The notes under the pieces: generated by a model
Databases searched by the model: none
Told to the model about the DNA's origin: nothing
The model's input: the letters and a program-made list of their open reading frames with translations, nothing else
Part shown: in pieces, positions 10,224-53,700 of the stretch
Numbering within the stretch: the first letter of the stretch is position 1
Layout of the letters: each line of letters starts with the position of its first letter
From: Loripinus fragilis
Taxonomy: Eukaryota > Mollusca > Bivalvia > Lucinida > Lucinidae
Direction: 5' to 3'
Length of the DNA: 64,000 nt
Assembly (NCBI GenBank): GCA_964019695.1
Contig: OZ026517.1
Coordinates: 77,851,252-77,915,251, forward strand
Position numbers and translations under genes: made by a program

Positions 10224-11453
10224 AAGGTCCTAAACTAGACCATGAGCTGGTCCTAATACTCTTTCTTTTAGTATAGACTAGACCATGGGCTGGTCCTAAT
10301 ACTCTTTCTCTTAGTATGCACTAGACCATGGGCTGGTCCTAATACTCTTTCTCTTAGTATGCACTAGACCATGGGCTGGTCCTAATACTCTTTCTCTTAG
10401 TATAAACTGGTCCTAATACTCTTTCTCTTAGTATGCACTAGACCATGGGCTGGTCCTAATACTCTTTCTGTTAGTATACACTAGACCATGGGCTGGTCCT
10501 AATACTCTTTCTCTTAGTATGCACTGGACCATGTGCTGGTCCTAATACCCCTTTTCTTAGTATGCACTGGTCCTAATACTCTTTCTCTTAGAATGCACTA
10601 GACCATGGGCTGGTTTTAACACTCTTTCTCTTAGTATGCACTGGTCCTAATTCTCTTTCTCTTAGTATGCACTAGACCATGGGCTGGTCCTAATACTCTT
10701 CGTCTTAGTATGCACTAGACCATGGGCTGGTCCTAATACTCTTTCTCTTAGTATGCACTGGTCCATGTGCTGGTCCTAATACTCTTTCTCTTAGTATGCA
10801 CTGGACCATGTGCTGGTCCTAATACTCTTTCTTTTAGTATGCACTGGTCCTAATACTCTTTCTCTTAGAATGCACTAACCATGGGCTGGTCCTAATACTC
10901 TTCGTCTTAGTATGCACTAGACCATGGGCTGATCCTAATACTCTTTCTCTCAGTAGACCATGGGCTGGTCTTAATACTCTTCGTCTTAGTATGCCATAGA
11001 TAATGGGCTGGTCCTAATACTCTTTCTCTTAGTATGCACTGGACCATGTGCTGGTCCTAAACCTCTTTCTCTTAGTATGCACTGGTCCTAATACTCTTTC
11101 TCTTAGAATGCACTAGACCATGGGCTGGTCATAATACTCTTTCTCCTAGTATGCACTGGTCCTAATACTCTTTCTCTTAGTATGCACTAGACCAGGGGCT
11201 GGTCCTAATACTCTTCGTCTTAGTATGCACTAGACTGTGGGCTGGTCCTAATACTCTTCCTCTTGGTATGCACTAGATAATGGGCTGGTCCTAATTCTCT
11301 TTCTCTTAGTATGCACTAGACCATAGGCTGATCTTAATACTATTTCTTTCTTAGTATGCACTAGACCATGGGCTGGTCCTAATACACTTTCTCATTTAGT
11401 ATGCACTAGACCATGGACTGATCCTAATACTCTTTCTCTCTTAGTATGCACTA
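10224..11453 (+). repeat. 43-bp minisatellite with short deletion variants
   Basis: About 30 tandem units of the form CACTAGACCATGGGCTGG then TCCTAATACTCTTTCTCTTA. Full units are 43 bp. Units of about 31 bp lack AGACCATGGGCT. Within a full unit TAGACCA and TGGTCCTA form an imperfect hairpin. It lies about 3.2 kb beyond the GDAP2 stop codon. Confidence 0.95.
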
Positions 11454-14690: not shown

Positions 14691-14747
14691 TCATAAGTCA
14701 CCATTGTCCTCCTCATCAAATGGAACATAGTACCGTGGACCATTCAC
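14691..14747 (-). CDS. GDAP2: GDAP2 terminal coding exon with stop codon
   Basis: The acceptor TATATTTGCAG is followed by 18 codons (VNGPRYYVPFDEEDNGDL) and TGA at 14691-14693, with a second in-frame TGA directly after. The NGPxYY motif near the stop matches the GDAP2 tail. The 3'UTR runs to lower coordinates. An AATAAA on this strand at 13957-13962 is a possible poly(A) signal about 730 bp downstream, but I cannot confirm its use. Confidence 0.9.
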   Translation of the reverse strand: MNGPRYYVPFDEEDNGDL

Positions 14748-17700
14748 CTGCAAATATAGACAAGCTACATAACAAATGATATAAGTGGCCAGGAAACTCC
14801 AATATGCTACATGCAATGACCAGCAGGTCAAATTCAAAGCTGTATGAGTATGCCTGACATTGTTTATAAATACACACCAAATTCAGGGCGCTTCATCCAT
14901 TAACACCTCCTCTCACATATGTGTGTTAGTTGAGAAAGTTTGTTTGTTTGTTTTGTTGCTTTACATCCCAAGTCAACAGCTATGGTCATTGCGGGACGGT
15001 CAGTTCACCTAACCACACTTTTTCCTGGGCAGGCTTGAACAAGCGGTTAACCAGTAATTCGTGCACATACTTTCTCTTGTAACTGACAACAACCCTTCTT
15101 GAATGAATCAGCGGAAGGGAGGAGAATGACCGTAGAAATCATTTCATGATCAATCTCCACGAAAGTATGGGACCGGACCAGGATCGAACTCGCGACCCCT
15201 GGATCTGCAGTCAGACACGCATCTGAAGCCAGACACGTTACCGACTGCGCAACGCGGCCCGGCTTAGTTGAGAAAGGGGTTAAATTGCGAGTGCACCAAT
15301 ATGCTAAGGCATATCTATTTTTCTTCTGTTTGTGTGGCAACGATGTGCAAAACTCTCAACTGGGACGGCATGCACCCCAAGAGAATGGACCCCAAAGTCA
15401 GAATTGCTCTGACTTAAAAAATATGTGAAAGGTAAGGGTGAATGGCTGACGTGGTCCAGGCTCCCAATATGCATAGCTTACTTGCATAAAAAAAGCATAA
15501 TAAACGGCAACATACATTACTAGTGTTGTCCAATAGTTATGGACTTCCTCAGAGGATTTTACAGCCTGATCTTGAGGCGATCTGCACCATATTTATAGTC
15601 GTCAGGGGGTCGGTGAACCAGCCCTTGTTTGGCAATACATTGTAAAGTCATCAGGGGACTGGTTCAAAACGGTCCTTATTTCACAATATTTGACAATATA
15701 CAGGCCCCTGGTTAATTTGCTGTATCATGTGACCCGGGGGCTGGTTACGTGCATTTCCGCTATACACCAATGTTAAACAAAGGCTGGTTCACCTGCCCCC
15801 TGATGACTATAAATATGGTGCAGATCGCCTCTAGCAGGCTGTAAAGTCCTCCAATAAAGTTCATAACTATTGGACTAAACTAGTAAGCCTAGTATGTTGC
15901 CATTTATTTATGTTTTTATGCCAGTAAGCTTTGCACATCGGGAGTCTGACCATGTCAGCCACTCACCCTTGCATAACAAATGACCTTATCTTTATCACTA
16001 TCACACTCTAAGTGGTTTAAGTACCAAAGGTCATGATAAACATATTTTTGAGCGTGAAATTGTGAATATTTTTATATCCATAACCTTTAACATTTAAATT
16101 TTGTGATCAAAAGAACCATCTCATTGAGACAGTTCTGTGGTTCTTTTCAGTACACATAACATATGTTTTGGTTGAGAAATTTGAAAACTAAGTTTTAATT
16201 ACCCACTCTTATCTAAAAGCCTGACAGTACAATCAAGTTTTGGCCAATGTATAGAATAAAGAGTTACAGAGTCTCAGAAAATGGGCAGGCTCACTAAGTG
16301 CATTTATGCTAGGTGTGATACAACTAACTCTTGTTAACTCGAGTCCATGGAACAGAGTTTTTATTGAGTTACAAGTGGTTTGAGGTAAATAGTCCTTACC
16401 ATTTCGACTAAAATTTAGAAATTTTCTAGCTTGGCTTATCTTAATTGAATCTGACAACTAGGAATCTTCAGTGTTTTCTAACCTCATTAAAATCCAATAT
16501 CTTGCAGAGAATATTTATACCACTTTATGCATTGTGAGACAAACTTAGACAAATGTATAATTAATCAAGACATAAGACTGCCCTGTATGTTTTATACTTT
16601 TTTTTCTGAACTCTAAAATATTTTGATTAATGTTTCGGATTTATAAACGCATTCATGGTCAGGGCTCATTGCTACCATGATGAAAGTAGTCTGAAATTCA
16701 TTTAAATATATGTAGCAGATGTAATCTGCAATGTTTTCAGGACAGAAAACAAATGACAGGATAAGTGTTAAATCACCTTCTTCTATCTGAGGTAAATGCT
16801 TCACAAAAGGGCTATATGGGTCTGCATTTTTTGCCAAGACCCACTTTGTGGAGGCCAGGCACAAGTGGCTATTGTGTTGCTGCTCATTATCTACACAAGT
16901 CACTTATTGCTATCCTGTATGGTAAGGTATACTAAATCCTTTCCCTGCCATTCTCAACAAATGTTGTCTCCTTTCTCATCTCATGATGCACTCTGGTGGT
17001 TTTTATTGCAAACAATGTGTACCCAGATGTTGAGTCTCATCAGGGTCCATACTGTTTGTATCTATGAGTCTAAGGTTCATTAGAATATATGAAGCATATT
17101 GGCGAACAATGGATGACAGACAATGGATGTCATGGTTAGCAAATAGCAGTACCCCAAATCCATCCGTGCTCTTAACCTCTGTCCTTTCAAGACGAGGAGT
17201 AAATCTTACATCATCATCATCATAATCGGATTTTTGATTAACGTGCAGGTGCAGGGGCATCATCCACATCAGTGGGCCCCTTTCCAGGTAACTGGCTAGC
17301 TGCATGCATGGCAGATCTCACACCTGATCTCCAGGTGCTCCTTTCTTGAGGGTCAACTGTCGTGAGCTTCCATTCATGGAAGTCTTTCTCCATCAGTTTC
17401 TTCCATGTTAGCTTGGGCCTCCCTGCCCCCCGCCTACCCTCAATCTGTATATCACATGCTGTTCTGATTGCACCACTAGAACCCTCCACATGCCCAAACC
17501 AGCCAAGCCTTCTCTCTCTCAAAATGGGGTCGAGGTCCTCAAGCTCGAGCTTTGCCAGTAATTCACTTGACAATACCGTGGCCACATCCTCTGGCTTGTT
17601 ACTGCAGATCTGTCTGATCATGGCACTACCATTGCGCTGCAAGCGCTGCAGGTTCGTCTTGGTCAGTGGCCAAGTTTCACTGGCATGGAGCATGGCGCTC

Positions 17701-20700
17701 CGCACGCAAGAGCTGTATACATGGACACAGGTCTTGTAAGAGAGATGGCGGGATGTGAGAACTGGTAGTAGCTCCCTGAACTTCTTCCAGGCTGTTTTCA
17801 CACAAGTAGTGACTGTTATTTCACAGCCTCCACCAGCAGAAAGCATGTCACCCAGGTAGCAGAAGGAAGCTACCACCTCCAGCTTATCAGGTCCAACCTG
17901 GACTTCACTCTGTGGCCTGCCGTCAATAGGGCGGGCATTTCCCATGCACCGTGCACACCTATAATCAGGATTTGGTGTCAGTCGTTGTAGCCCACTGCAT
18001 TTCTTATGCACCCAAAGTTTGCAGCCATTGCAGTAGATGCTGTTGTTGCCTACTCCTGTACGACAGACAGCGCATTGGTATTTGCCTGAACTCTTCAAAA
18101 GGTCCTGTACCACAGATCATGACCTTTGTCTTTCCTGCATTTACCCTCAACCCCTTCATCTCCATGGCTTCTTTCCATATCAAGAGCCTCCTGACACATA
18201 TTATATTACAAGTATATATCATCAGTTGTGGCAGAACTTGGTAAAAGAATAGAAATTTATGTTCAGTTTGTGGTTTTATCAATTACAAGATGTAAGATTA
18301 AATCCACACAGTACTGTTACATGATATGATTCATTTTCAGAAATTTTCTGAAATCTTGGCAAAATGCTGAGCATAATAAAAGGAACTAATCTGAAAGGTC
18401 ATAGCTCCTGGCCTTGAGGTTATAAAACTATTTTCATACTAAACTTAACTGAGCATGAAATTTCAACTACTCATAAAAACTAAAGTACTGAAAAAAAGAT
18501 TTGTTCCTGCTTAAAAGACTCAGATGTTGCATTTATCCTGCTAATAAATGTACAGATGCCAACAAATGACAACATTTTCACATTTATGATCAGAATAAAT
18601 TTCATGCTCAATTTCATTGATATAGAGGTTATTGGAACACTCGGGCGAGGAAGCCCCAAGGTGAAGTGGAACAAAATTGACACAGAAAGTCTGCCTTGTG
18701 TGGACCTTGAGATCAAGTTAAGAGCTGCTCTGCATGGAGCTAGCCAGCTACTTGGAGGGGGCCCACTGATGTGGATGATGTCATGCACTTGCATGTTAAT
18801 CTAAAACCTGATGGTAATGATGATGGCATGTTAGTTTTGAATAGTCTGTAGGGTTTATAGTGAATTTAGATTGGTATAATATCTGTATGATTTATGGTGA
18901 ACTTAGAATTACAAAATGTCTGTGAGGTATATAGTAACTTTAAATTGACAAATATATTTATGATTGATAGTGAATTTAGTTTGACAAAATACCTGTACAG
19001 TTTATAGTATTTAACTTTAGATTGACAAAATATCAGTATGGTTAATATTAGTAAAATTTCAGAGAACAACTGCAAAATGGCATGGAGTATTTATGTATGG
19101 TCAATAATCACTATTGACAAAATATCTGTATGGTTTTGGTCAACAAAATATCTTTATAATTTAAATGATTTTAGACTGAAAAATATCTGTATAGTTTGTA
19201 GTGATTTTAAATTGACAGAATTTCTTGTATGCTTTATATTGGAATGGAAAATCAGCACAACTCAAATGTTTTCTTTTACAAATTAGCTTTGAATTGTATT
19301 CCTTCTTCAGTGCAAATAGGTTGATTGTATATTTATAATGTATGCTTTATAGTGATTTTAGATTGACAAAATATTTGTAAGGTTTATATTGATTGACAGA
19401 ATATTTGTATGGTTTATACTGATTTTCAATAAAACAGTTTGTAAAAAGAGAAAGTGTTCACCTGTATATCATGGTCTAGAACAAAAGGAGGTATATCTAA
19501 CTGATCAGGGTTTATCCTCGCATAGAGAAACTGTACACCTTTCAAGGAATGGACCTTCTGTTTAATATCTGAGGCTGTGAATGTTGTGAAGAACCAGGTG
19601 GCAAGCTGAAGAAGAAACAGTAGTCAAATTATTGTATATATCCCAAACTATTTCCTCCCTAGCGCTGGCTTTTGATGTCCGCTGACTTGTTAGAAAAATT
19701 ACCCAGTGTGCCACTGTGCCTAGATTTAATATTCAGAACCTCATCTTATTTTACAACCTTTTGAAGTGTGTTAAAGGAAGTGATGGAATGTAAATGGAGT
19801 GTTAATCCTGATCACTAATTGCCATTCTAATGTTGCCTTTAAGTACTTTTACACACCACACAGGTTGTTAAATAGACTTGCTTGAATTACAGGATACGCT
19901 TGGTGATTATAACTCTGCACCATCCTACTCAAAGTAGGGTGGGACGATTGTATTCATTTAATTTTCTCCTTAAAAAGAGTATGTTTGTTCCCGCCCCCAT
20001 CCCCCCCCCCCCCTTTAAAAGCAAAACAGTACATCAGATTTTGGGAGATGAGGGAGGACCACAACAAGCCTGTGCATATGTGCAGTCATGCCAGAGCCTG
20101 TGTTATTTGCAAACTCAAGGTAGAGAATTAGACCTCTAACCCCACTAGATAGCTGGGAATGAACTTGTTAAGAGTGGCTTTATGCTTATGCAATAAGAAA
20201 CAAAATCTCATGACCTTATTCGTGATTTTAATGCTGACCTTTTGGAACTTTCCTTTAGTGTCCAAAACCTTGAATTCAGGCATTGTCCTGAAAACTTTCA
20301 CCAATGTGAGTACACATATTTGCAAGGACTAGAAAATATTATATGCCACAAAATGAAAAATGTCAGCAAATTTTCATAAAATGCAGCCATGACTGAGCCT
20401 TTAAAGACAATGACAGCAACTTACATTTGACCACCAAGTAGGATGTACTTAGTAAAATGACAGAAACATACGTTTGACCACCAAGTAGGATGTACTATGT
20501 AAAATGACAGCAATATACCTTTGACCACCAAGTAGGATGTACTATGTAAAATGACAGCAACTTACATTTGACCACCAAGTAGGATGTACTATGTAAAATG
20601 ACAGCAACATACCTTTGACCACCAAGTAGGATGTACTATGTAAATGACAGCAACATACCTTTCACCACCAAGTAGGATGTACTATGTAAAATGACAGCAC

Positions 20701-23700
20701 CTTACCTTTGACCACCAAGTAGGATGTACTATGTAAAATGACAGCAACATACCTTTGACCACCAAGTAGGATGTACTATGTAAAATGACAGCAACATACC
20801 TTTGACCACCAAGTAGGATGTACTATGTAAATGACAGCAACATACCTTTGACCACCAAGTAGGATGTACTATGTAAAATGACAGTAACTTACATTTGACC
20901 AACAAGTAGGATGTACTATGTAAAATGACAGCAACATACCTTTGATCACCAAGTAGGATGTACTATGTAAAATGACAGCAAATACCTTTGACCACCAAGT
21001 AGGATGTACTATGTAAATGACAGCAACATACCTTTGACCACCAAGTAGGATGTACTATGTTAAATGACAGCAACATACCTTTAACCACCAAGTAGGATGT
21101 ACTATGTAAAATGACAGCAACATACCTTTGACCACCAAGTAGGATGTACTATGTAAAATGACAGTAACTTACCTTTGACCACCAAGTAGGATGTACTATG
21201 TTAAATGACAGCAACATACCTTTGACCACCAAGTAGGATGTACTATGTTAAATGACAGCAACATACCTTTGACCACCAAGCAGGATGTACTATGTTAAAT
21301 GACAGCAACATACCTTTGATCAACAAGTAGGATGTACTATGTAAAATGACAGCAACATACCTTTGACCACCAAGTAGGATGTACCATGTAAAATGACAGC
21401 AACATACCTTTGACCACCAAGTAGGATGTACTATGTAATATGACAGCAACATACCTTTGACCACCAAGTAGGATGTACTATGTAAATTGACAGCAACATA
21501 CCTTTGACCACCAAGTAGGATGTACTATGTAAAATGACAGCAACATACCTTTGACCACCAAGTAGGATGTACTATGTAAAATGACAGCAACATACCTTTG
21601 ACCACCAAGTAGGATGTACTATGTAAAATGACTTTAAATTCTTTCTGTACCTGACCACCAAGTAGGATTTACTGTGTAAAATAACAGCAACATACCTTTG
21701 ACCACCAAGTAGGATGTACCATGTAAAATGACAGCAACATACCTTTGAACACCAAGTAGGATGTACTATGTAAAATGACAGCAACATACCTTTGACCACC
21801 AAGTAGGATGTACTGTATTAAATGACAGCAACATACCTTTGACCACCAAGTAGGATGTACTATGTAAAATGACAGCAACATACCTTTGACCACCAAGTAG
21901 GATGTACTATGTAAAATGACTTTAAATTCTTTCTGTACCTGACCACCAAGTAGGATTTACTGTGTAAAATAACAGCAACATACCTTTGACCACCAAGTAG
22001 GATGTACCATGTAAAATGACAGCAACATACCTTTGACCACCAAGTAGGATGTACTATGTAAAATGACAGCAACATACCTTTGACCACCAAGTAGGATGTA
22101 CTGTGTAAAATGACAGCAACATACCTTTGATCAACAAGTAGGATGTACCATGTAAAATGACAGCAACATACCTTTGATCAACAAGTAGCATGTACCTTGT
22201 AAAATGACAGCAACATACCTTTGATCAACAAGTAGGATGCACTATGTAAAATGACAGTAACTTACATTTGACCAACAAGTAGGATGTACTATGTAAAATG
22301 ACAGCAACATACCTTTGATCAACAAGTAGGATGTACTATGTTAAATGACAGCAACTTACATTTGACCAACAAGTAGGATGTACCATGTAAAATGACAGCA
22401 ACATACCTTTGATCAACAAGTAGGATATACTATGTAAAATGACAACAAATACCTTTGACCACCAAGTAGGATGTACTATGTAAAATGACAGTAACTTACA
22501 TTTGACCAACAAGTAGGATGTACCATGTAAAATGACAGCAACATACCTTTGATCAACAAGCAGGATGTACTATGTAAAATGACAGCAAATACCTTTGACC
22601 ACCAAGTAGGATGTACTATGTAAAATGACAGTAACTTACATTTGACCACCAAGTAGGATGTACTATGTAAAATGACAGCAACATACCTTTGATCAACACG
22701 TAGGATGTACTATGTAAAATGACAGCAACATACCTTTGACCACCAAGTAGGATGTACTATGTTAAATGACAGCAACATACCTTTGACCACCAAGCAGGAT
22801 GTACTATGTTAAATGACAGAAACATACCTTTGATCAACAAGTAGGATGTACTATGTTAAATGACAGTAACTTACATTAGACCACCAAGTACGATGTACTA
22901 TGTAAAATGACAACAACATACCTTTGACCACCAAGTAGGATGTACCATGTAAAATGACAGCAACTTACATTTGACCACCAAGTAGGATGTATTATGTAAA
23001 ATGACAGCAACATACCTTTGACCACCATGTAGGGTGTACTATGTAAAATAACAGCAACATACCTTTGACCACCAAGTAGGAAGTACTATGTAAAATGACA
23101 GTAACTTACATTTCAGCAACAAGTAGGATGTACTATGTAAAATGACAGCAACATACCTTTGACCACCAAGTAGGATGTACTATGTAAAATGACAGCAACA
23201 TACCTTTGACCAACAAGTAGGATGTACTATGTAAAATGACAGTAACTTACATTTGACCACCAAGTAGGATGTACTATGTAAAATAATAGCAACATACCTT
23301 TGACCACCAAGTAGGATGTACCATGTAAAATGACAGCAACATACCTTTGACCACCAAGTAGGATTTACTGTGTAAAATAACAGCAACGTACCTTTGACCA
23401 CCAAGTAGGATGTACTATGTTAAATGACAGCAACATACCTTTAACCACCAAGTAGGATGTACTATGTAAAATGACAGTAACATACCTTTGACCACCAAGT
23501 AGGATGTACTATGTAAAATGACAGTAACTTACCTTTGACCACCAAGTAGGATGTACTATGTTAAATGACAGCAACATACCTTTGACCACCAAGTAGGATG
23601 TACTATGTTAAATGACAGCAACATACCTTTGATCAACAAGTAGGATGTACTATGTTAAATGACAGTAACTTACATTAGACCACCAAGTACGATGTACTAT

Positions 23701-26700
23701 GTAAAATGACAACAACATACCTTTGACCACCAAGTAGGATGTACCATGTAAAATGACAGCAACTTACATTTGACCACCAAGTAGGATGTATTATGTAAAA
23801 TGACAGCAACATACCTTTGACCACCATGTAGGGTGTACTATGTAAAATAACAGCAACATACCTTCGACCACCAAGTAGGAAGTACTATGTAAAATGACAG
23901 TAACTTACATTTCAGCAACAAGTAGGATGTACTATGTAAAATGACAGCAACATACCTTTGACCACCAAGTAGGATGTACTATGTAAAATGACAGCAACAT
24001 ACCTTTGACCAACAAGTAGGATGTACTATGTAAAATGACAGTAACTTACATTTGACCACCAAGTAGGATGTTCTATGTAAAATAATAGCAACATACCTTT
24101 GACCACCAAGTAGGATGTACCATGTAAAATGACAGCAACATACCTTTGACCAGCAAGTAGGATTTACTGTGTAAAATAACAGCAACGTACCTTTGACCAC
24201 CAAGTAGGATGTACTATGTTAAATGACAGCAACATACCTTTAACCACCAAGTAGGATGTACTATGTAAAATGACAGTAACATACCTTTGACCACCAAGTA
24301 GGATGTACTATGTAAAATGACAGTAACTTACCTTTGACCACCAAGTAGGATGTACTATGTTAAATGACAGCAACATACCTTTGACCACCAAGTACGATGT
24401 ACTATGTTAAATGACAGCAACATACCTTTGACCACCAAGCAGGATGTACTATGTTAAATGACAGCAACATACCTTTGATCAACAAGTAGGATGTACTATG
24501 TAAAATGACAGCAACATACCTTTGACCACCAAGTAGGATGTACCATGTAAAATGACAGCAACATACCTTTGACCACCAAGTAGGATGTACTATGTAATAT
24601 GACAGCAACATACCTTTGACCACCAAGTAGGATGTACTATGTAAATTGACAGCAACATACCTTTGACCACCAAGTAGGATGTACTATGTAAAATGACAGC
24701 AACATACCTTTGACCACCAAGTAGGATGTACTATGTAAAATGACAGCAACATACCTTTGACCACCAAGTAGGATGTACTATGTAAAATGACTTTAAATTC
24801 TTTCTGTACCTGACCACCAAGTAGGATTTACTGTGTAAAATAACAGCAACATACCTTTGACCACCAAGTAGGATGTACCATGTAAAATGACAGCAACATA
24901 CCTTTGAACACCAAGTAGGATGTACTATGTAAAATGACAGCAACATACCTTTGACCACCAAGTAGGATGTACTGTATTAAATGACAGCAACATACCTTTG
25001 ACCACCAAGTAGGATGTACTATGTAAAATGACAGCAACATACCTTTGACCACCAAGTAGGATGTACTATGTAAAATGACTTTAAATTCTTTCTGTACCTG
25101 ACCACCAAGTAGGATTTACTGTGTAAAATAACAGCAACATACCTTTGACCACCAAGTAGGATGTACCATGTAAAATGACAGCAACATACCTTTGACCACC
25201 AAGTAGGATGTACTATGTAAAATGACAGCAACATACCTTTGACCACCAAGTAGGATGTACTGTGTAAAATGACAGCAACATACCTTTGATCAACAAGTAG
25301 GATGTACCATGTAAAATGACAGCAACATACCTTTGATCAACAAGTAGGATGTACCATGTAAAATGACAGCAACATACCTTTGATCAACAAGTAGGATGCA
25401 CTATGTAAAATGACAGTAACTTACATTTGACCAACAAGTAGGATGTACTATGTAAAATGACAGCAACATACCTTTGATCAACAAGTAGGATGTACTATGT
25501 TAAATGACAGCAACATACCTTTGACCAACAAGTAGGATGTACTATGTAAAATGACAGTAACTTACATTTGACCAACAAGTAGGATGTACCATGTAAAATG
25601 ACAGCAACATACCTTTGATCAACAAGTAGGATATACTATGTAAAATGACAACAAATACCTTTGACCACCAAGTAGGATGTACTATGTAAAATGACAGTAA
25701 CTTACATTTGACCAACAAGTAGGATGTACCATGTAAAATGACAGCAACATACCTTTGATCAACAAGCAGGATGTACTATGTAAAATGACAGCAAATACCT
25801 TTAACCACCAAGTAGGATGTACTATGTAAAATGACAGTAACTTACATTTGACCACCAAGTAGGATGTACTATGTAAAATGACAGCAACATACCTTTGATC
25901 AACACGTAGGATGTACTATGTAAAATGACAGCAACATACCTTTGACCACCAAGTAGGATGTACTATGTTAAATGACAGCAACATACCTTTGACCACCAAG
26001 CAGGATGTACTATGTTAAATGACAGCAACATACCTTTGATCAACAAGTAGGATGTACTATGTTAAATGACAGTAACTTACATTAGACCACCAAGTACGAT
26101 GTACTATGTAAAATGACAACAACATACCTTTGACCACCAAGTAGGATGTACCATGTAAAATGACAGCAACTTACATTTGACCACCAAGTAGGATGTATTA
26201 TGTAAAATGACAGCAACATACCTTTGACCACCATGTAGGGTGTACTATGTAAAATAACAGCAACATACCTTTGACCACCAAGTAGGAAGTACTATGTAAA
26301 ATGACAGTAACTTACATTTCAGCAACAAGTAGGATGTACTATGTAAAATGACAGCAACATACCTTTGACCACCATGTAGGATGTACTATGTAAAATGACA
26401 CCAACATACCTTTGACCAACAAGTAGGATGTACTATGTAAAATGACAGTAACTTACATTTGACCACCAAGTAGGATGTACTATGTAAAATAATAGCAACA
26501 TACCTTTGACCACCAAGTAGGATGTACCATGTAAAATGACAGCAACATACCTTTGACCACCAAGTAGGATTTACTGTGTAAAATAACAGCAACGTACCTT
26601 TGACCACCAAGTAGGATGTACTATGTAAAATGACAGCAACATACCTTTGACCACCAAGTAGGATGTACCATGTAAAATGACAGCAATATATCTTTGACCA

Positions 26701-29700
26701 CCAAGTAGGATGTACCATGTAAAATGACAGCAACATACCTTTGACCACCAAGTAGGATGTACTATGTAAAATGACAGCAACATACCTTTGACCACCAAGT
26801 AGGATGTACTGTGTAAAATGACAGCAACATACCTTTGATCAACAAGTAGGATGTACTATGTAAAATGACAGCAACATACCTTTGATCAACAAGTAGGATG
26901 TACCATGTAAAATGACAGCAACATACCTTTGATCAACAAGTAGGATGCACTATGTAAAATGACAGTAACTTACATTTGACCAACAAGTAGGATGTACTAT
27001 GTAAAATGACAGCAACATACCTTTGATCAACAAGTAGGATGTACTATGTTAAATGACAGCAACATACCTTTGACCAACAAGTAGGATGTACTATGTAAAA
27101 TGACAGTAACTTACATTTGACCAACAAGTAGGATGTACCATGTAAAATGACAGCAACATACCTTTGATCAACAAGTAGGATGTACTATGTAAAATGACAG
27201 CAAATACCTTTGATCACCAAGTAGGATGTACTATGTAAAATGACAGTAACTTACATTTGACCAACAAGTAGGATGTACCATGTAAAATGACAGCAACATA
27301 CCTTTGATCAACAAGCAGGATGTACTATGTAAAATGACAGCAAATACCTTTGACCACCAAGTAGGATGTACTATGTAAAATGACAGTAACTTACATTTGA
27401 CCACCAAGTAGGATGTACTATGTAAAATGACAGCAACATACCTTTGATCAACACGTAGGATGTACTATGTAAAATGACAGCAACATACCTTTGACCACCA
27501 AGTAGGATGTACTATGTTAAATGACAGCAACATACCTTTGACCACCAAGCAGGATGTACTATGTTAAATGACAGCAACATACCTTTGATCAACAAGTAGG
27601 ATGTACTATGTTAAATGACAGTAACTTACATTAGACCACCAAGTACGATGTACTATGTAAAATGACAACAACATACCTTTGACCACCAAGATGGATGTAC
27701 CATGTAAAATGACAGCAACTTACATTTGACCACCAAGTAGGATGTATTATGTAAAATGACAGCAACATACCTTTGACCACCAAGTAGGAAGTACTATGTA
27801 AAATGACAGTAACTTACATTTCAGCAACAAGTAGGATTAACTATGTAAAATGACAGCAACATACCTTTGACCACCAAGTAGGATGTACTATGTAAAATGA
27901 CAGCAACATACCTTTGACCAACAAGTAGGATGTACTATGTAAAATGACAGTTACTTACATTTGACCACCAAGTAGGATGTACTATGTAAAATAACAGCAA
28001 CATACCTTTGACCACCAAGTAGGATGTACTATGTAAAATGACAGCAACATACCTTTGACCACCAAGTAGGATGTACTATGTAAAATGACAGCAACATACC
28101 TTTGACCACCAAGTAGGATGTACTGTGTAAAATGACAGCAACATACCTTTGATCAACAAGTAGGATGTACCATGTAAAAAGACAGCAACATACCTTTGAT
28201 CAAAAAGTAGGATGTACCATGTGAAATGACAGCAACATACCTTTGATCAACAAGTAGGATGCACTATGCAAAATGACAGTAACTTACCTTTGATCAACAA
28301 GTAGGATGTACTATGTTAAATGACAGCAACATACCTTTGACCAACAAGTAGGATGTACTATGTAAAATGACAGTAACTTACATTTGACCAACAAGTAGGA
28401 TGTACCATGTAAAATGACAGCAACATACCTTTGATCAACAAGTAGGATGTACTATGTAAAATGACAGCAACATACCTTTGACCACCAAGTAGGATGTACT
28501 ATGTAAAATGACAGCAACATACCTTTGACCACCAAGAAGGATGTACTATGTAAAATGACAGCAACTCACCTTTGACCAACAAGTAGGATGTACTATGTAA
28601 AATGACAGCAACTCACCTTTGACCAACAAGTAGGATGTACTATGTAAAATGACAGCAACTCACCTTTCACCACCAAGTAGGATGTACTATGTAAAATGAC
28701 AGCAACTCACCTTTGACCACCAAGTAGGATGTACTATGTAAAATGACAGTAACTTACATTTGACCACCAAGTAGGATGTACTATGTAAAATGACAGCAAC
28801 ATACCTTTGATCAACAAGTAGGATGTACTATGTAAAATGACAGCAACATACCTTTGACCACCAAGTAGGATGTACTGTGTAAAATGACAGCAAAATACCT
28901 TTGATCAACAAGTAGGATGTACCATGTAAAATGACAGCAACATACCTTTGATCAACAAGTAGGATGTACCATGTAAAATGACAGCAACATACCTTTGATC
29001 AACAAGTAGGATGCACTATGCAAAATGACAGTAACTTACATTTGACCAACAAGTAGGATGTACTATGTAAAATGACAGCAACATACCTTTGATCAACAAG
29101 TAGGATGTACTATGTTAAATGACAGCAACATACCTTTGACCAACAAGTAGGATGTACTATGTAAAATGACAGTAGCTTACATTTGACCAACAAGTAGGAT
29201 GTACCATGTAAAATGACAGCAACATACCTTTGATCAACAAGTAGGATGCACTATGCAAAATGACAGTAACTTACATTTGACCAACAAGTAGGATGTACTA
29301 TGTAAAATGACAGCAACATACCTTTGATCAACAAGTAGGATGTACTATGTTAAATGACAGCAACATACCTTTGACCAACAAGTAGGATGTACTATGTAAA
29401 ATGACAGTAGCTTACATTTGACCAACAAGTAGGATGTACCATGTAAAATGACAGCAACATACCTTTGATCAACAAGTAGGATGTACTATGTAAAATGACA
29501 GCAAATACCTTTGACCACCAAGTAGGATGTACTATGTAAAATGACAGTAACTTACATTTGAACACCAAGTAGGATGTACTATGTAAAAGGACAGCAACAT
29601 ATCTTTGATCAACAAGTAGGATGTACTATGTAAAATGACAGCAACATACCTTTGACCACCAAGTAGGATGTACTATGTTAAATGACAGCAACATACCTTT

Positions 29701-32700
29701 GACCACCAAGCAGGATGTACTATGTTAAATGACAGCAACATACCTTTGATCAACAAGTAGGATGTACTATGTTAAATGAAAGTAACTTACATTAGACCAC
29801 CAAGTACGATGTACTATGTAAAATGACAACAACATACCTTTGACCACCAAGTAGGATATACCATGTAAAATGACAGCAACTTACATTTGACCACCAAGTA
29901 GGATGTACTATGTGAAATGACAACAACATACCTTTGACCACCAAGTAGGATATACCATGTTAAATGACAGCAACTTACATTTGACCACCAAGTAGGATGT
30001 ACTATGTGAAATGACAGCAACATACATTTGACCACCAAGTAGGATGTACTATGTAAAATGACAGCAAATACCTTTGACCACCAAGTAGGATGTACTATGT
30101 AAAATGACAGCAACTTACATTTGACCACCAAGTAGGATGTACTATGTAAATTGACAGCAACATACCTTTGATCAACAAGTAGGATGTACTATGTAAAATG
30201 ACAGCAACATACCTTTGATCAACAAGTAGGATGTACTATGTAAAATGACAGCAACATACCTTTGACCACCAAGTAGGATGTACTATGTAAAATAACAGCA
30301 ACATACCTTTGACCACCAAGTAGGATGTACTATGTAAAATGAGAGTAACTTACATTTGAGCAACAAGTAGGATGTACTATGCAAAATGACAGCAACATAC
30401 CTTTGACCACAAAGTAGGATGTACTATGTAAAATGACAGTAATTACATTTGACCACCAAGTAGGATGTACTATGTAAAATGACAGCAACTTACATTTGAC
30501 CACCAAGTAGGATGTACTATGTAAAATGACAGCAACATACCTTTGACCACCAAGTAAAATGTACTATGTGAAATGACAGCAACTTACATTTGACCACCAA
30601 GTAGAATGTACTATGTAAAATGACAGCAGCTTAACTTGACCACCAAGTAGGATGTACTATGTAAAATGACAGCAACATACCTTTGACCACCAAGAAGGAT
30701 GTACTATGTAATATGACAGCAACATACCTTTGACCACCAAGTAGGATGTACTATGTAAAATGACAGCAACATACCTTTGACCAACAAGTAGGATGTACTA
30801 TGTAAAATGACAGCAACATACCTTTGACCACCAAGTAGGATGTACTATGTAAAATGACAGCAACGTACCTTTGACCACCAAGCAGGATGTACTATGTAAA
30901 ATGACAGCACCTTACCTTTGACCACCAAGTAGGATGTACTATGTAAAATGACAGCAACATACCTTTGACCACCAAGCAGGATGTACTATGTAAAATGACA
31001 GCACCTTACCTTTGACCACCAAGTAGGATGTACTATGTAAAATGACAGCAACGTACCTTTGACCACCAAGTAGGATGTACTATGTAAAATGACAGCAACA
31101 TACCTTTGACCACCAAGAAGGATGTACCATGTAAAATGACAGCAATATACCTTTGATCAACAAGTAGGATGTACTATGTAAAATGACAGCAACATACCTT
31201 TGACCACCAAGTAGGATGTACTATGTAAAATGACAGCAACATACCTTTGACCACCAAGTAGGATGTACTATGTAAAATGACTTTAAATTCTTTCTGTACC
31301 TGAAAAAGGAAAATATATGCTGGCATATCACTAGTTAAACAAGTGAACCTATTACCAGTATAATCAAAATTTTTGAGCGTAAAATAAAGAATGTTTTCTT
31401 ATCCATCAATTTAGTATTTGTTTTGGGAGCTCACCAGAACCATCTCACTGGAGACAGTTCTTATGAGATCCCACAACATATGTTTTGGTTGAGAAATAAG
31501 AACTTTGATTATGCACTCTTAGCTAGAGGCCTTTAAATTACTGTGTGTGCTGGTTTTGTTTAACAGTCCACCAACAGCTCAAGTCATATGGAGATGGGGC
31601 CACAATTTAAAATATCATCCAACAGCCAGCAGACCAACAAGGTGTGTGACTTATCCACTGCACAACCGCGGCTCTTGTGTTAAGAAGACAAAATCGTCGA
31701 ATATATATCCCCGACAAAGGGTTATTTAGGAGAAACATGTAAACCACAAAACATATATGCCATTTATCTAAACCCTAAGTTCACCTTCGGTATCATTCAG
31801 ATCATAACAAACGCCTGTCAAGTATATTTTAGTGCTTAGTTTAATAAAAAAAAATATTCTTACATCTGCTGCACAATTTCAATATCTGACCTTTCAACCC
31901 AACCACAGAGGTCAAGGATATGTGTAAATTCATAATGTTACCTTGCATGTTGGTCTACACTTCTTTCACTTTAATTTGATATGCAACATGACCACTTTCA
32001 GAAAAGAAAAAATATTTGACCTTTTGACCCTACCCCAGGGGTTGAGGGTGTGTGTAAGGACAACATATTTGCTTTCAAGGTGCTCTGTGCTCATTTCCCT
32101 TTAATTTGATATGCAACATGACTACTTTCAGAAATAGATATGGTTTGACCTTTTTGACCCCACCCCTGGGTCGAGGGTTTGTCCGTGGGCAAAATATTTG
32201 CTACCATGTTGCTGCATGTGTCGTTAGCTTTAATTTGATATGCAACATGACCATATTCTGAAAAAGTTTACTTTTGGCCTTGGCCTCACCCCCTAAGTCC
32301 ACCCCAGGGGATCAGACCCAGGCCTTCAAACTAAAATTCCCTTTGATATGTTTCATATCTATTGCTCCTCTGCCTACATGCAAAATTTGGGCAAAAAGTG
32401 TTAACTGCCTTAGTTATTGCAAAATTTAAATATTTGACTTTTGACCCTGTAGGTGGTGTAAAATTTTGACACTGCCATGCTTATCTACAGGTGCTGGGCA
32501 ATCAGGGTCTATAGTGATAAGTTGTTAAATATAATAGCTTTGAGGAAATTTGAAGATCATTAAATAAAACTAGAGGACCTGACGGTCCTGAAGCGCTCAC
32601 CTGATCCCCTTAATAATGTTAAAATAGGTCAAGATCAACTACAGCTTATAATGAAACATATTTTGTTTTATGGGGGTTGCGGCCATTTTGGTCAAGTGAC

Positions 32701-35700: not shown

Positions 35701-38700
35701 GGCTTTAGTTATGAGTGCTTACAAAGTAATTAATTGTCTCATTTCTCAACCAAAACATATGTTGTGGGTATTCAAAAGAACCGTCGCAATGAGACGGTTC
35801 TTTTAAGCACCAAATAATAGATTAAATCTGATGTGTAAGAAAAATATTAACAATTTTACGCTCAACATCTGTGTTTATCTAGACTATGATTTATACAGTA
35901 TGCAGATATGATACACCTCAGTGCACAAGTCAACTGGATGAACTTGAAACATTACAGGTAATAGTCAAAAGTCATTGACAGCACACTTCTTTAGATGAAA
36001 CAATGTAATCTTCTCAACCCGAATTTTATGCAAAACGCATCACTTTCGTCTCAAGTTTTATGCCGGAAACATAATATTTACATGTATTTAGGTGAATACT
36101 CGACGACTCTTTGACTTTCTGTGAAATAAAATTTGGTCACAAAAAATACCCCCACTCCCTAAATCCTAAATCCCTGGCATAATTATGCAATATTTCCAAA
36201 ATATTTTTATTTTGCTAGGTGCACTAAATGTAAGGGTTTGATTTAAGCACAAAACTATAGTTGTCAGTTATGCGTTATTCTAGCCACAGGCTGTCAAAAT
36301 TTGGGCAGATTGAATAGGAAACTGTCCGAGGTCCTTTAATAACCACCAATTGTTTGATCACTTGGTCCACGTGTGTGAGTGACACTTGTGTGTTGTAAAA
36401 TTACATAATTGTCCGCGGTCGGCAAATTCTATTGATCTATTGTGTACAATTTCAAAGCGGGAACATGTCTATCTCTGTAAGTGACAGTTTGAGCTAATGT
36501 GTCATATTTGAGCAATCTATTGAGTATTAAGCCTGTCCGATGACTGCTTGTTTTAAATAAGGCTAAAGTATAATTTAATTGTTTCTTGAGCCAATTTTTG
36601 ATTTTTGAAAACAGATGCATCGTTTTATTTTAGGCACTGGACAGTTGTGCGTGTAAGGGTATTTTTGGACATTGGTCATGTCATGACAAAAGCTGATGAA
36701 AATTAAAACGTGCATGTACACTGTTGGGGCTTAAACATTGCCAAAATGTCAATATGAGCCGGGACATGTGATTTCCAACAATGTGGCATTTTGACAAGTG
36801 TAGACTTAGACGAGCCTGTGCAGCTTCCTTTTAAGCTTAAAAACTCCACAGATTATGTTCGTCAGTAGCTTAACATTCATAGAATATTCAAGGGACTAGT
36901 AAAGGCTCTGATCAGACTGCGCGTTTGCGCAGGCTGATCTCAGGCTTTGCTGGTCTCATATACCACGTTGTTGGAAATCCCATGCCACGGCTCAATTATG
37001 ACGACGTACGAAAGGGTAAAACCTGCGACCGCGGGACCAGTCGCCGATACATACTTATAACTGAAAAAGCTTTGTTTATTTTATTTTGCCTTAGAAAATG
37101 AAAGAAATGGCCATAATGTCGGGACTTCAGTGGTACCTGAAAATCGATTCTATTTTTCCCCTTTTTTATTCTTGTTTTTTTTTTAATTTCAATTCCCAAT
37201 GTCAATTGATTCTTGGAACAATTCATCCCGCAATTCATCAATGTAATTATATAATAGCTACCAATAACGATCTATTAATGGACGAGTTGAACGTAAGTTA
37301 TTTTGCCCCAAAATTGTGGCTATACATCATGATATGGTTACCTCGAACTACTGATAACTCGACACATTTTGCTCAGTCCCTTGAGATTCGAGGTATCGAG
37401 AGTAGACTGTAATTATGTAAACAGCTAGTGGTTTATCGATTTTAATACATGGTGCTATATTACTTCCAGACATGATGCCATGTGAATAATAGCAACATGA
37501 CTTACTTGTTATCTAAGGCCATGTAGACAGTCTTCAGAAAGTTTATGTCTGGTAGATTTTCATTGGTAGTTAATGTGTGGAAGTAAACAACAACATACTC
37601 CTTCTCTGCTATATGGTCCATCATCCTGATCAGGTATAACAGGGCCTAGAAAACATCATTATAACTCTTACAATAATGCAAATTAAATGCCACAGACTAC
37701 ATACCAACCCACAACACCAAGAGGAAGAGACATAAAACTCTAGCTACACGACAGATTACCAAACTTTGCTGTAAAAAATTTAGCAAATAGCAGAATCCCA
37801 CATATACTGCTCAACAAAAGTTGAGCACCGATAAATAAAGATTAATTCATGTGTGAGCAAATTATTTAAGAAATAGATCAGCTCTAGCAGTGAATTGGTG
37901 AGTAATAATTCACTGTTTGGAGGTCAGTTGTAAAGAAGATCAAATCACAACCTGAAGCTGATCTATTTCGATTCTGACACACAATAAACGACGAAAACAC
38001 ATTTGAAGTCTTCAGCCTCTTTCAACTTTCCGCCATTGCACTGAAGAACTCCCGCCAATAGTTAGATTGATTGCATACATTGACATGCATTTGTAGCATC
38101 TTTCAAGCGTAAAAACGGCATTACACCGTCTAACACCATAAATGTATCATTTTAAAGTAACAGATGATGTCAGCTAACATGCGCTTTCCTCACGCTTTCA
38201 AAACAGTGAATTATTGTTTGATATATCACGTTTTTCCCTATTGGCTCTATAGGCGAGGTGTGTTAGAGTTAAACGGATAAAATATCTGCTGAAATAATTA
38301 CTTTATATGTGTTAAAGTTAAGGAAAGCAAAGGGTGCAATTTAATTTGATTTATACTGCATCATTCATTGCGTAAAAAATGGAAGGGGTCAAAAAGTACT
38401 TCAACTGCATTATTCTCAATACAAAATTAATACAGCATTGGTTTATAAAGCCTTCATGCAGAGCGGCGTTAATCTGAATTCAAGGCTAACTGTAGGCGGT
38501 AACACTATCCATAGAAGACGTTTACAAATGATTGACTAAAAGAACTGTTCCGTGCTTGTGCTACCATAGCATCAAAAGCATTACTTGAACGCTTAATTCG
38601 GTTCGCTTAAAAGACATGAAATGTAAAAAGAGCATTTTAACCTCATAAAGGAATGCAGAAACATGACATAAACGAGAACCATTCTCTGACGTTTTTCATC

Positions 38701-44700: not shown

Positions 44701-47700
44701 AAAAATTGACCCTTTGACCCGAACAAAGGGGTCGAAGGTGAGTGTAAGGACAGATATTTGCTTTCATGGTGCTCTATGCTAAATTCCCTTTAATTTGATA
44801 TGCAACATGACTACTCTCAGAAAAAAAATGGTTTGACCTTTTGACCCTGCCCCCCGGCCTTTAGACTAAGATCCTATTTGATATGTTTCATATCTATTGC
44901 TCCTCTGTCTGCATGCAAAATTTCAGCAAAAAATATTGACAACTGCCTTAGTTTTTGCGAAATTTAAATATTAAAAAAAATTGTTTGATTTACAAATACC
45001 AGTCACAATCAATATGGCGTTCATTAAATGTGTTGTTCAAAAACAGATCACTCTCACAAATGATTTCTAGCCTAATATATAACTGGCTGGAGGTCAGTCT
45101 TTAAACTGGATAAATCATGAGCGTGAAGTGTGAGTGATTTATAAACACACAACTGACAGACTGACAGTGATATATAAAACAACAATTCAATGCCAACACA
45201 AATCCATTTCGATTCTAAAACACAAAAAGATTGGAAATATGAACAATTTCTTCAACGTGTATAGGGATTCCACCATCTTAAAAAGAGCATTAGAATTTCT
45301 CATTAATCTTGCTTAGACTGAAAGGCGTATTTTTATGAACATTTTGAATGTTCACTAGTTGTAAAAACAATGTACAAAATCTAATGTTAATTTAACAAGG
45401 TTGTATATGATAGATGATGTCATAAATAGCAAATTGGCAGCCGAATGATGTCAAATTAGTCAATGCTGTACAGAACTTTCTGAAATTTGAGAAGGCTTTA
45501 TGAGACTTGTGGTTGAAAGGAGACCTGCTCAAAGCAAAGTCTCAGTGATTTTGATATAAAGTTGTTTAGATTGTCTAAACAATTGAAAGAATGCTTTGCA
45601 ATCCATGCGGTCTGAGACTCCCTATTACAGATGGAAACAAATTGAATTCTGTTGTGGCTAGTTTTTGCTTTTGTTGCTCCACCTGTTGTTGTGGTTTTAC
45701 AGTGTTTTCAGGGCTCATACAGAAAGGTTTGAGAAAAATTCAAGGACTTTTCAAGGACTTCTAAAGGACTTTCCTACAGTTTTTCAAGGTCTAAATATTA
45801 TGAATAAAATACAGATTTAAGTGCTAAAATTCTATTTCAGAAATGCTAGACTGAGATAATGAAGATATAAGTACTGGAGAATTAGTATAAAATCGTTGTG
45901 TCTTTATTTGGTGCAGCATATGCACAACAATTCTATACTGATTAAGGTCTCTATTAACTGTGCTAAGTCCTACAGAAAATAGTAGAATTCAAGGTCTTGT
46001 CATGGCTTTTGAGTGATTTTCCAGTACTTTTCAAGGCAGAATTAATTTTCAAGGACTTTTCAAGAAAGCCCTCTAAATTCAAGTACTTTTCAAGCCTGTG
46101 CGAACCCTGGTTTTGTGAACTTTCTCGTTAGGCAATTGTCTCACTGAGGAAGAGATCTAAAGAGCTGATGATTGGCTTATTTGTTCATGCTTGTACACAT
46201 GTTCTTGTGTTATTTCGTTTTGGGTGCCATTGATTAGCTGTGCCATTTCATGGTCATATTCACTTGATTTTAGTGATAAAGAAGTACCTTTTCCAGGTCT
46301 ATAGTGGCAGCTGGAAAGTTTTTCCCCACAAACACTACAACTGGTCTGCCAAGTCTGTCCTGTCCTGTCTGGTACATACAGCGCAGTGAAGCTATATCAA
46401 CTAGATCCTCTGTTTTAGCTCGCTTTAATAAACGCTCATATCTGTTGGGAAGAAACATAGTACTTACTATTCCTAGAAAACAATATACATAAGCAAGCCC
46501 TAATCCACAAAACACTTTTATTTGGAACCCTGGCCTTTATCAGAATCCTGAATGGTAAAATATAGCTCTTTACATTTATCAGTGAAACAGCCTGTGGTTT
46601 AGCCAAATAGAGCAGCATTCTTTTCTAAAAAGTTTATTACAAACAAGAATTAAAAAGATCTGAATAAAAAAGGTGAAAGTATATTTTCAGATGCTCAAGG
46701 GCAGCTAACTCTGTAGTCAATGATGGGATCTGACCGATCCATACTTTAATGTATGTCCTGATAACCTAGAAGGATTAAACAAGTAGCCCAATGAGCAACT
46801 ATCGCCCACCTGGGAGCCAGCATAATGTTTTAAGATACATTAATTTATGATGCTTAAAGGCAGGTAACTCTGAACTTGAAACAGTGACCAGGAATTAATT
46901 AAAAAACATAAGATATTATGCCAGTCCTGGTTATCTGCAAGTATTAAAAAGATCTCAATAAAAATGATGAAAGTATATTTTGAGATGCTCAAGGGCAGCT
47001 CACTCTGTAGTCAGTGATGGGATCTGACCGATCCATACTTTAATGTCTTTTGTGATAACCTTAAAGGATTTCAAATGAAAAATCAAGGCGCTAGAGTGGT
47101 TACAACATTATACAGCTATATTTTAGACGCTCAAGTGCAGCTAACTCTGTTTGCGTGTGGGGATACTCTAACTCATTCAAGCTTTTATGGGTGTCCTTGA
47201 TACCGGCAAAACTGAAGAAGATCCATTCAAAAACAAGCAAATTCAGAGAATTTATGTCCCCCGCCACTTTTTGTCTATATGAACTATCATGGAACAGCTT
47301 AAGTTCGCAGAACAGAAAACAGAAACAAAACCAAAGCATATCCATATCTTCAGGCCAAGACATAAGCACATACAGATGCTTCATAAAGAATTGTATAAAA
47401 CTGTAGGAGCTTTTGCACTCAAAGGTACTTCATATATATAGACATAGATAAGATATTGATAGCACTGACAGCGAAAAATGCTGGAAAAAAGATAAACGTT
47501 AAGCTGAGGTTTTATTTGATAAAATTAATCTGAGGATTATATCCAAACCATATGCATATCTTCAGACCATGAACAAAACACCAGTAAAATGGCTAAGTTC
47601 AACTTGTGAAAAAAGTGACAAAAATAATCTGAGGTTTATATCCAAACCACATGCATATCTTCAGACCATGACCAAAACACCAGTGAGGTTTCAAAAGAAT

Positions 47701-50700: not shown

Positions 50701-53700
50701 GGCAATAACTGGAGAGATCGCTCCCGTTACTGTCAACGTTTACACTTACGGCACCGTTATTGTAAACGCATTTACAGTAATGGGAGTGATATCCCCCGTT
50801 ATTGTCACCGTTTACACTAACGGGAGCGTTTACTCTAACGGGTGCTACAAAGCACCATTACAACTGTTTTAATAGAGTGAATAGCAAAATATCGCCATTT
50901 TGAGGATAAAAAAATCTTCGTACTTAAGGCTATGAATTGCCATGAACTATGATGAAATGATGTCTACTTAGTCTGGCTCCCATTGACATAATACAGAAAA
51001 ACCCTTACCTTTTCTTCTGTTCTAACAACCTCTGTTCTGTTGTTGTTCGCCTCATTGCTCTCTTCTTCAAATCTGGATTTTCTTCCATCTGAGCAAAAGC
51101 ATGTTGACCTACAGTGCCATTGATAGAGCGTCCAAACTCTTGGTTCAGATCAGTTGTCTTCTCTAGTTCACTCTCCTCAGAATGGCCTATAAAAAGTGAA
51201 GCTATACAATGTGAGTATATAACTTATCACAGAATAGGCCACTGGCTGGATATAGTTTACCTCCCCCCCACAGGGAATTTTGTGGACAATATTTTCCTTA
51301 AAGCCCAATGGATTTTGCAACATATTAGCCCTCTGACAATGGCAGTGTTAAGCTGTAACACCCTGTTATATACATTACCCTACAAAAGATTTGATAATTA
51401 ACTTTCTTTTTAAGACTTCAGAAAAATGCAAAAGATAAGGTAAGATTTCCAAATAGGTTACATCTTCTAACTAGGCTATTACTGGGCCACAGATATTGAC
51501 ATTTGAAAACAAATATAGCCACCCCCAATGTAGTGTATGTTACATTTTTTCATTGGACCCCCTTTTAAATGATACAAGAATCTAATATAGTTTGTCTTAA
51601 ATTTTATTGAAACCAGTTTATGTTCATTAATTTGGTATTATATTAAAGAATTTTTTTAACCTTTTCAAAACTGCAAGCATTATGTTTCTATGTTATATAC
51701 TTTTTGAGTTATTAGATGTTGAACATAGTAGCCCCATATCACACAAAATGTCAAATGTAATTCTCTAGGCCTTGAGCTGGCTATTGTACCCCTTCCCCCA
51801 GGGGGAATTTTGTACACTATGATTTCCAGATACTACATTATTTAAGCTACAAAATGAAATATGTCAGCCCTCCGAGAGTGGCAGCGTTAGGGTGTAACAT
51901 CATGTTATGTACGTTACCCGCAAAATAACATTAAATTTTCCTGATAATGTCTCCAACATGACATATTTACACTTTTTTAAGTCTGGTACAGGTTTAAGAA
52001 CTTCTTATAACACAGTTACATGATTTTAGCATTTAATTTTTAAAACTTTTGGAGTTTTTGCCATTGTATGCTTAGTGTTTCATATGTTATTTCCAAGTCT
52101 CAGTACGGCAGTTATTGAATATACATGTTTGTTTGTTTATTTTGTTGCTTTACGTCCCAAGTCAACAGCTATGGTCATGGCGGGACGGTCAGTTCACCTA
52201 TCCACACTTTTTCCTGGGCAAGCTTGAGCAAGCAGTTAACCAGTACTTCCTGCACATACTTCCGCTTGTAACTGACAATAACCCTTCTTGAATGATTCAG
52301 CAGAAGGGAGGAGAATGACTGTAGAAATTATTTCATGATCAATCTCCACGAAAGTATGGGACTGGGCCGGGATCAAACTCGCGACCCCTGGATCTGCAGC
52401 CAGACTCGCATCTGTTGCCAGACACGTTACCGACTGTGCTACGTGGCCCGGTGAATATACATGTAAAACATCCGTCAGTGAATATAGCAAATCTATAAGG
52501 CTGCTATTCAAATGAATTGAAGTTCCTTATAATGGTGTGTTACACTATTTTACGACCTAGGTTACATACGTTACTCTCCAAATACCACTAAACGTTCAAG
52601 ATAAGGTTTCCAAAACGACCTGCTTGTACTTATTTGCATGCTGACACAGGTCTATGTACTTCATTTTTACTTTGGCTCATTTGCTGCGGAAGTAACTCAA
52701 ACCATAAACTACCATAAACCCTCTTTTCTTTTATAGAGACATCAAATAAAGTTAACATAATGCTCATGGAAAGTTTGTAACATACAGTGCAATATGTGAG
52801 TAACCAACTTAAAAGATCAAAGAAAACCCATCAGGTAGAAGTTATAGAGCTGTTTTTGCCAAGCTAGCAACTCTTCGTATATTAACCAAGGGTTTAAAGA
52901 ATTTTCGCATTAGGGTTATTAATCCTCTATCAGATTCAGCTTGCAAGGGTTCTGCAATATGCTAGCACTCTGGAAATGGCACCATTACCTTGTAACTGCC
53001 AATTACATATATTACCCATCAACATCTATGATAATTTTAGTAAATGACATGACTTCTGAAAAGTTCAAACCATAAGGTAAGGTTTCCAAATTGGCTATAT
53101 CATCCAAGTAAGCTATTTTTGTATCATAGATATGGACCTTTGAAAACAAATATGCACCCGAAAGTGCTAAGTATGTTATATTTTTTCATTATTCCTATAT
53201 AAATGATTTATAAAACTAATATAGTTTGATATTTTTTTTAAATGTGAATGTGTTTACTAATTCATTTTGTATTAAAGAATGTTTATGTACCTTTTGGAAA
53301 CTGAAAATATTATGTTTCTATCTTTTATAAGGTTTGAGTTGTTGAGTTTTGAACATGGTAACCCCATATCACACAAAATGTGAACTATAATTCTGCGGCT
53401 CTTTTGTAAGGGTATAATCAAGTTTTCTTTCACTCAGAGGTACTCGATTTCCTTCCCATTTATTTTTCACACATTTTGTCCATATCTGGAAAGCCTCACT
53501 TGTTTTCATGGGAAATACTTGGTAGTTCAATCTTTGTATGTACATCTTAAGGACATATGCTACTAAATACTTCCCATATTGAAATATTTTCAAAACTTTG
53601 CATACAGTTTGTTTTATGCATGGGCTATCCATTTATGAAATAAAAAGGATATGTCACCGTGCTTATTTTTTCAGAATCTCATATTGAAGTTTGCAGCATT

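Follow-up and report, generated by a model that had tools for sequence, protein, structure and literature searches.

Tandem repeats that copy an exon/intron boundary have precedents in lancelets and in humans. The "mirages" of the amphioxus Adh3 and globin genes are minisatellite-like tandem duplications of such boundaries, the units measuring 10-72 bp in Adh3 and 150-160 bp in BflGb6, where two haplotypes carry 6 and 3 units; the accessible portion of that report describes length instability, together with data suggesting that regular splicing is undisturbed (PMC3087553). Lancelet TnC and PGBD5 also contain boundary-spanning repeats, according to excerpts of a second paper (PMC3902484). In human IFI6 (6-16, G1P3), two downstream minisatellite units are described, in the available part of the text, as being used as donors, giving rise to three mRNA species (PMC4526556), and a similarly partial account of human segmental duplications reports internal tandem repeats at exon-intron boundaries that change intron structure (PMC2812944).

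Here we describe a tandem array built from the donor end of a coding exon of GDAP2 in a bivalve, found in a 64,000-nt window, by which we mean the whole stretch of DNA analyzed. The original prediction had singled out an array of a coding exon end with its donor as the strongest candidate for something undescribed, a claim that must be given up, since the amphioxus mirages and human IFI6 already establish boundary-spanning minisatellites as a known kind. In those portions of the open-access literature that could be searched, no report of the GDAP2 array was found, nor any paper combining GDAP2 with a mollusc. By analogy with the amphioxus clusters, the array can be read as a very large mirage, residing in a bivalve.

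The GDAP2 exon and its tandem array

The 3' part of GDAP2 occupies the minus strand of the window as seven coding exons, which join into 888 nt with GT-AG borders and remain open until the stop codon. Six of these sites were placed by tblastn, using human GDAP2 and molluscan C-terminal peptides; the seventh is the 55-nt progenitor exon of the array. The features are as follows:

63531-63690, minus strand: GDAP2 coding exon, the first one found in the window (tblastn; frame)
51009-51186, minus strand: GDAP2 coding exon (tblastn; frame)
46288-46441, minus strand: GDAP2 coding exon, start of the CRAL-TRIO domain (tblastn; domain search; frame)
37506-37645, minus strand: GDAP2 coding exon directly upstream of the progenitor exon (tblastn; frame)
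31245-31299, minus strand: progenitor exon, 55 nt, peptide YRKNLKSFYIVHPTWWSK; acceptor TTCCTTTTTCAG, donor GTATGT from 31244, phase fitting both neighbours; segment in 6 of 7 aligned homologues
20409-31281, minus strand: array of 231 tandem 47-bp units (TRF and cyclic alignment; GT in 224 of 231 donor columns)
20409-20414, minus strand: GTCATT closing the array on its downstream side, with unrelated intron GTCTTTAAAGG beyond it
19462-19605, minus strand: GDAP2 coding exon downstream of the array (tblastn; frame)
14691-14747, minus strand: last GDAP2 coding stretch, with stop codon (tblastn with molluscan peptides; frame)

Both the identity of the gene, predicted to be GDAP2 on the minus strand, and the presence of a progenitor exon with a real acceptor at the upstream edge of the array are borne out by these exons and by the CRAL_TRIO_2 domain carried by the spliced peptide (E 5.8e-38). 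In a tree of 13 rows, this GDAP2 groups with that of Mya (98/96) inside a molluscan clade (97/97), a position in keeping with a bivalve. Use of the 55-nt exon in GDAP2 mRNA is very likely, judging from the sequence, because homologues have the corresponding segment, the frame fits, and omission of the exon shifts the frame. The segment is present in all but one of the seven aligned homologues, which were picked out of 91 matches, and Ser-Lys-Leu at the exon junction is identical in the three molluscs covering it (Solemya, Batillaria and Mytilus). The exception is a gene model of Mya arenaria (P0054), which is without the progenitor-exon segment, the segment of the following exon and the end of the preceding one; this gap could stem from a faulty model or could point to an unusual locus in that species too.

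Tandem-repeat analysis (TRF), proposed as a check by the original prediction, detected a single 47-bp array at 20409-31281 on the minus strand, with 231.1 copies, 91% matches and a score of 17623; cyclic alignment counted 231 full units between 31281 and 20409, in good agreement with the predicted figure of about 230 copies of a GDAP2 exon end with its donor. The predicted span of 20412 to 31299 had captured the array, with the 5' part of the exon added to it. On the minus strand the unit reads TCATTTTACATAGTACATCCTACTTGGTGGTCAAAG followed by GTATGTTGCTG, that is, the terminal 36-37 nt of exon 31299-31245 and the initial 10-11 nt of its intron, donor included. Its boundary can slide because GTCATT occurs at both edges of the array, so that the predicted composition of 37 nt of exon and 10 nt of intron is right to within one base, 36 plus 11 being equally valid. 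The exonic hexamer lies at 31276-31281 (AAA-GTCATT-TTACAT), and that after the last unit stands in the context GCT-GTCATT-GTCTTT. The first two units are identical to the modal unit, which is what an origin from the exon would predict, and the intron (31244-19606) consists largely of the array. A search of the window with a 30-nt core of the unit, allowing up to 8 substitutions, yielded no further copies outside the array, and no RNA structure was found in the first units (330 nt; z +1.31; 88 of 100 shuffles folding at least as well).

Several other repeats and open frames were observed in the same window. A 43-bp array of about 30 copies lies at 10234-11453, and its plus-strand unit contains CCTAATACTCTTTCTCTTAG, a look-alike of a branch point, pyrimidine tract and AG, on a strand to which no gene was assigned. 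A degenerate minisatellite with 30-37-bp units (18840-19047 and 19339-19426) lies past the next GDAP2 exon (exon end 19462), starting some 35 nt beyond the donor of that exon and leaving the donor itself out, and a 168-bp array of about 7 copies is located in another GDAP2 intron, at 58391-59569. The last GDAP2 intron contains a 292-aa open frame on the minus strand (17238-18116) with a PHD finger (E 1.2e-6), the remainder of which, by eye, is presumably akin to a fragment of a non-LTR retrotransposon. Two further minus-strand open frames, at 15047-15355 and 56324-56812, share a long similar peptide (VAQSVTCLA.DACLTADPGVASSI) and likely represent a dispersed repeat.

Donor choice and the reading frame

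The donor GT is retained in 224 of the 231 units, and four of the seven exceptions carry the 5' part of the exon in its place. The exact 9-mer of the first donor, AAGGTATGT, recurs in 148 of 231 units (the first included), and a second 9-mer, AATGTAAGT, occurs 43 times at the donor. Scored with a donor matrix, 11 of 231 donors exceed the first and 148, itself among them, have the same score; ranked by U1 pairing energy, 12 surpass it. Donor strength alone thus cannot explain a choice of the first donor. Splicing from that donor leaves the frame open. The unit length, 47, is not divisible by three. Translation from each of the 223 later GT donors, irrespective of phase, ends at one common stop codon in the second unit; with donor 2, this stop falls 167 nt ahead of the final exon junction. 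The first donor alone keeps the frame, and splicing would therefore have to pick the first of 224.

Starting from what is observed of the array and its make-up, the intact frame, the frame effect of every GT donor and the internal segmental duplications, we consider it probable, with some confidence, that the array is a mirage-type passenger minisatellite, tolerated since splicing would take the first donor, the sole one to keep the frame. The intact reading frame and, by analogy, the amphioxus precedent suggest such use. The first donor could prevail through exon definition, as it lies 55 nt from the sole acceptor whose pyrimidine tract is good, and through being transcribed before its rivals, whereas rare use of later donors would lead to the stop in unit two and to mRNA decay. 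Against this reading, reporters with competing identical donors often favour the donor nearer the 3' end of the intron, and the Mya arenaria model, the nearest in the tree, is without the exon segment.

In a comparison of 90 distinct units, based on 227 of the 231 (the four with the 5' part of the exon were left out), the 47 pairs of neighbouring columns comprise 14, with the GT pair counted among them, that vary no more than the GT pair. Selection for keeping donor copies is thus unsupported, the donor columns being no more constant than many others. Third codon positions of the exon-like part do show more variation (8.7 variant types per column, vs 3.0 and 2.7), which suggested coding use of the array; this was rejected, as the changes behind the excess number among them the replacement of Trp by Cys in 77 units and by a stop in 47.

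An alternative is that the array controls dosage, some transcripts being spliced from units 2-231, meeting the shared stop and decaying, such that GDAP2 output would depend on array length. That every later GT donor leads to one early stop, which would be open to decay because exon junctions lie downstream, accords with this proposal, as does the use of two downstream repeat units as donors in IFI6, so far as the available text goes (PMC4526556). The lack of any sign of constraint on the donors speaks against it, however, as does the portrayal of amphioxus mirages, in the accessible part of the report, as not disturbing splicing (PMC3087553), and we regard such control as unlikely. A more specific version, to which we would assign a still smaller chance, is a length-coded splicing rheostat, in which U1 and a single acceptor are contested by the roughly 224 near-identical donors, all but the first lead to the shared stop, and the number of repeats, which unequal exchange would alter, determines how much GDAP2 each individual produces. 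If true, minisatellite copy number would be read as gene dosage by way of splice-site competition.

Internal history and other sequence records

Within the array, blocks of 97-98% identity recur 3206, 3159, 1549 and 799 bp apart, the identities being approximate and no average, as they derive from ungapped offsets and only from windows selected at 97% or more. The longest exact repeat is 952 bp, and the mean difference between units is 3.84 per 47 (227 units). The duplicated blocks have the pattern that unequal exchange would be expected to leave. Four exact copies of the whole 55-nt exon also lie inside the array:

25043-25097, minus strand: exact copy of the whole exon; AG ahead, without the original pyrimidine tract
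24755-24809, minus strand: exact copy of the whole exon
21884-21938, minus strand: exact copy of the whole exon
21596-21650, minus strand: exact copy of the whole exon

Each is preceded by ...CTTGGTGGTCAG in place of the original pyrimidine tract, and the copies are spaced by 288 bp twice, with 3159 bp between the pairs. This spacing and the shared TCA(G) suggest that a unit recombined once with the start of the true exon and that the product was subsequently duplicated twice. Under the passenger reading, the array would have been born by tandem duplication between two GTCATT hexamers, one exonic and one starting at intron position 11, and would have grown by unequal exchange, one event capturing the whole exon at the TCA(G) match. 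As to the birth step, a truncated copy could just as well have left behind the GTCATT that stands at the array's downstream end.

It is very unlikely that parts of the array serve as exons, whether the four exact copies as spare, interchangeable exons or the units as 23-nt microexons running from an internal ATAG to the donor. Any of the four copies substituted for the exon would give an identical protein, and an AG stands ahead of each, but the original pyrimidine tract is missing ahead of the copies (pyrimidines at 8 of 16 positions, vs 9-13 in five real acceptors), and the exon plus one copy shifts the frame. That the array acts as a landing strip for U1, preventing early cutting and polyadenylation of the transcript or titrating U1 snRNP locally, strikes us as scarcely credible: the array does hold 202 strong donor-like motifs in 10.9 kb, vs 0-3 in each of six other GDAP2 intron stretches (with approximate borders, off by up to 31 nt), and is free of AATAAA/ATTAAA, vs 0.85-3.74 per kb in those stretches, yet both properties follow from the unit sequence alone, and the donor shows no excess conservation.

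A search of 5.8 billion proteins with the array reading frame gave three matches among 19 candidates, and a second array query returned the same three proteins among 3 candidates. Two of them, P0092 (100 aa) and P0093 (84 aa), are encoded on a 1.17-Mb ENA contig and correspond to translations of about six and about five tandem units, respectively. Cut into 40-residue pieces, neither protein has a match in the window (0 of 60 pieces for P0092, 0 of 44 for P0093), though some 25-residue pieces are found there (7 of 75 for P0092, 6 of 59 for P0093). The array thus exists in a second record as well, with different unit variants. The third protein, P0094, from another contig, has the identical exon peptide RYRKNLKSFYIVHPTWWSK, followed by VSPLIIVN and the protein end, i.e. 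a donor-like VS and then intron codons unlike the 47-bp unit. It fits an unexpanded relative, with about 24 nt of intron visible as amino acids only.

An assembly artefact, in the array or in its length, was the outcome that the original prediction had named as fatal to it, and that threat is weakened by the same unit in the other record, which supports the kind of array and not its length, because only about five to six units are present there. Although tandem arrays are hard to assemble, the 952-bp exact repeat exceeds short reads, one amphioxus mirage was apparently mis-assembled in a draft genome (according to the accessible portion of PMC3087553) and the second record is short, we find an artefact hardly tenable in view of the 91% mean match with ordered variants and indels, unlike stutter, and of the other variants in which that record encodes the unit.

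Relation to known boundary-spanning minisatellites

In GDAP2, a conserved gene, one acceptor faces 224 GT donors, 148 of which have the same 9-mer, so that the array puts splice-site choice to a natural test; owing to the shared stop, any wrong choice would show up as a product that is longer but truncated. What would let a single donor prevail over so many thereby becomes a testable question. If the first donor alone is used, exon definition or a first-transcribed-first-served rule holds against about 158 equal or stronger rivals (by the donor matrix); if later donors are used, repeat length controls dosage.

The array resembles the IFI6 minisatellite in its position at the donor of an exon and in having units that carry donors. 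The IFI6 minisatellite with multiple donor sites described by Turri et al. in 1995 reportedly has a short in-frame unit. Later units serve as donors for productive isoforms in IFI6, whereas in GDAP2, on translation, every later GT donor (223 in all) leads to the same stop. The internal tandem repeats of human segmental duplications average 30-bp units, 4 copies and 160 bp in the accessible part of their description (PMC2812944), as against 10.9 kb here. The system described in PMC2891723, to judge from the portion available, is alike in that a tandem duplication copies a splice signal, but in GDAP2 no new intron position is seen, and an existing intron has been lengthened.

The closest likeness is to the amphioxus mirages, in which repeats span a boundary with its splice signal, lie beside the authentic boundary and undergo turnover within the cluster. 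The GDAP2 unit likewise joins an exon tail to a donor (GT in 224 of 231), the authentic boundary has stayed at the edge of the cluster (exon 31299-31245, with its acceptor and in frame), and blocks of 97-98% identity stand out against mean differences of 3.84 per 47, indicative of homogenization and turnover. Expansion is on the donor side, as in amphioxus BflGb9. The mirage class would hence extend from lancelets to a mollusc and to kilobase scale, so that boundary-spanning minisatellites may be commoner than reported. The differences are the host, a bivalve and not a lancelet, the size, 231 units of 47 bp vs 6 and 3 units in BflGb6, and the four whole-exon copies inside the array; it is in scale, phylum and whole-exon copies that the GDAP2 array is unusual.
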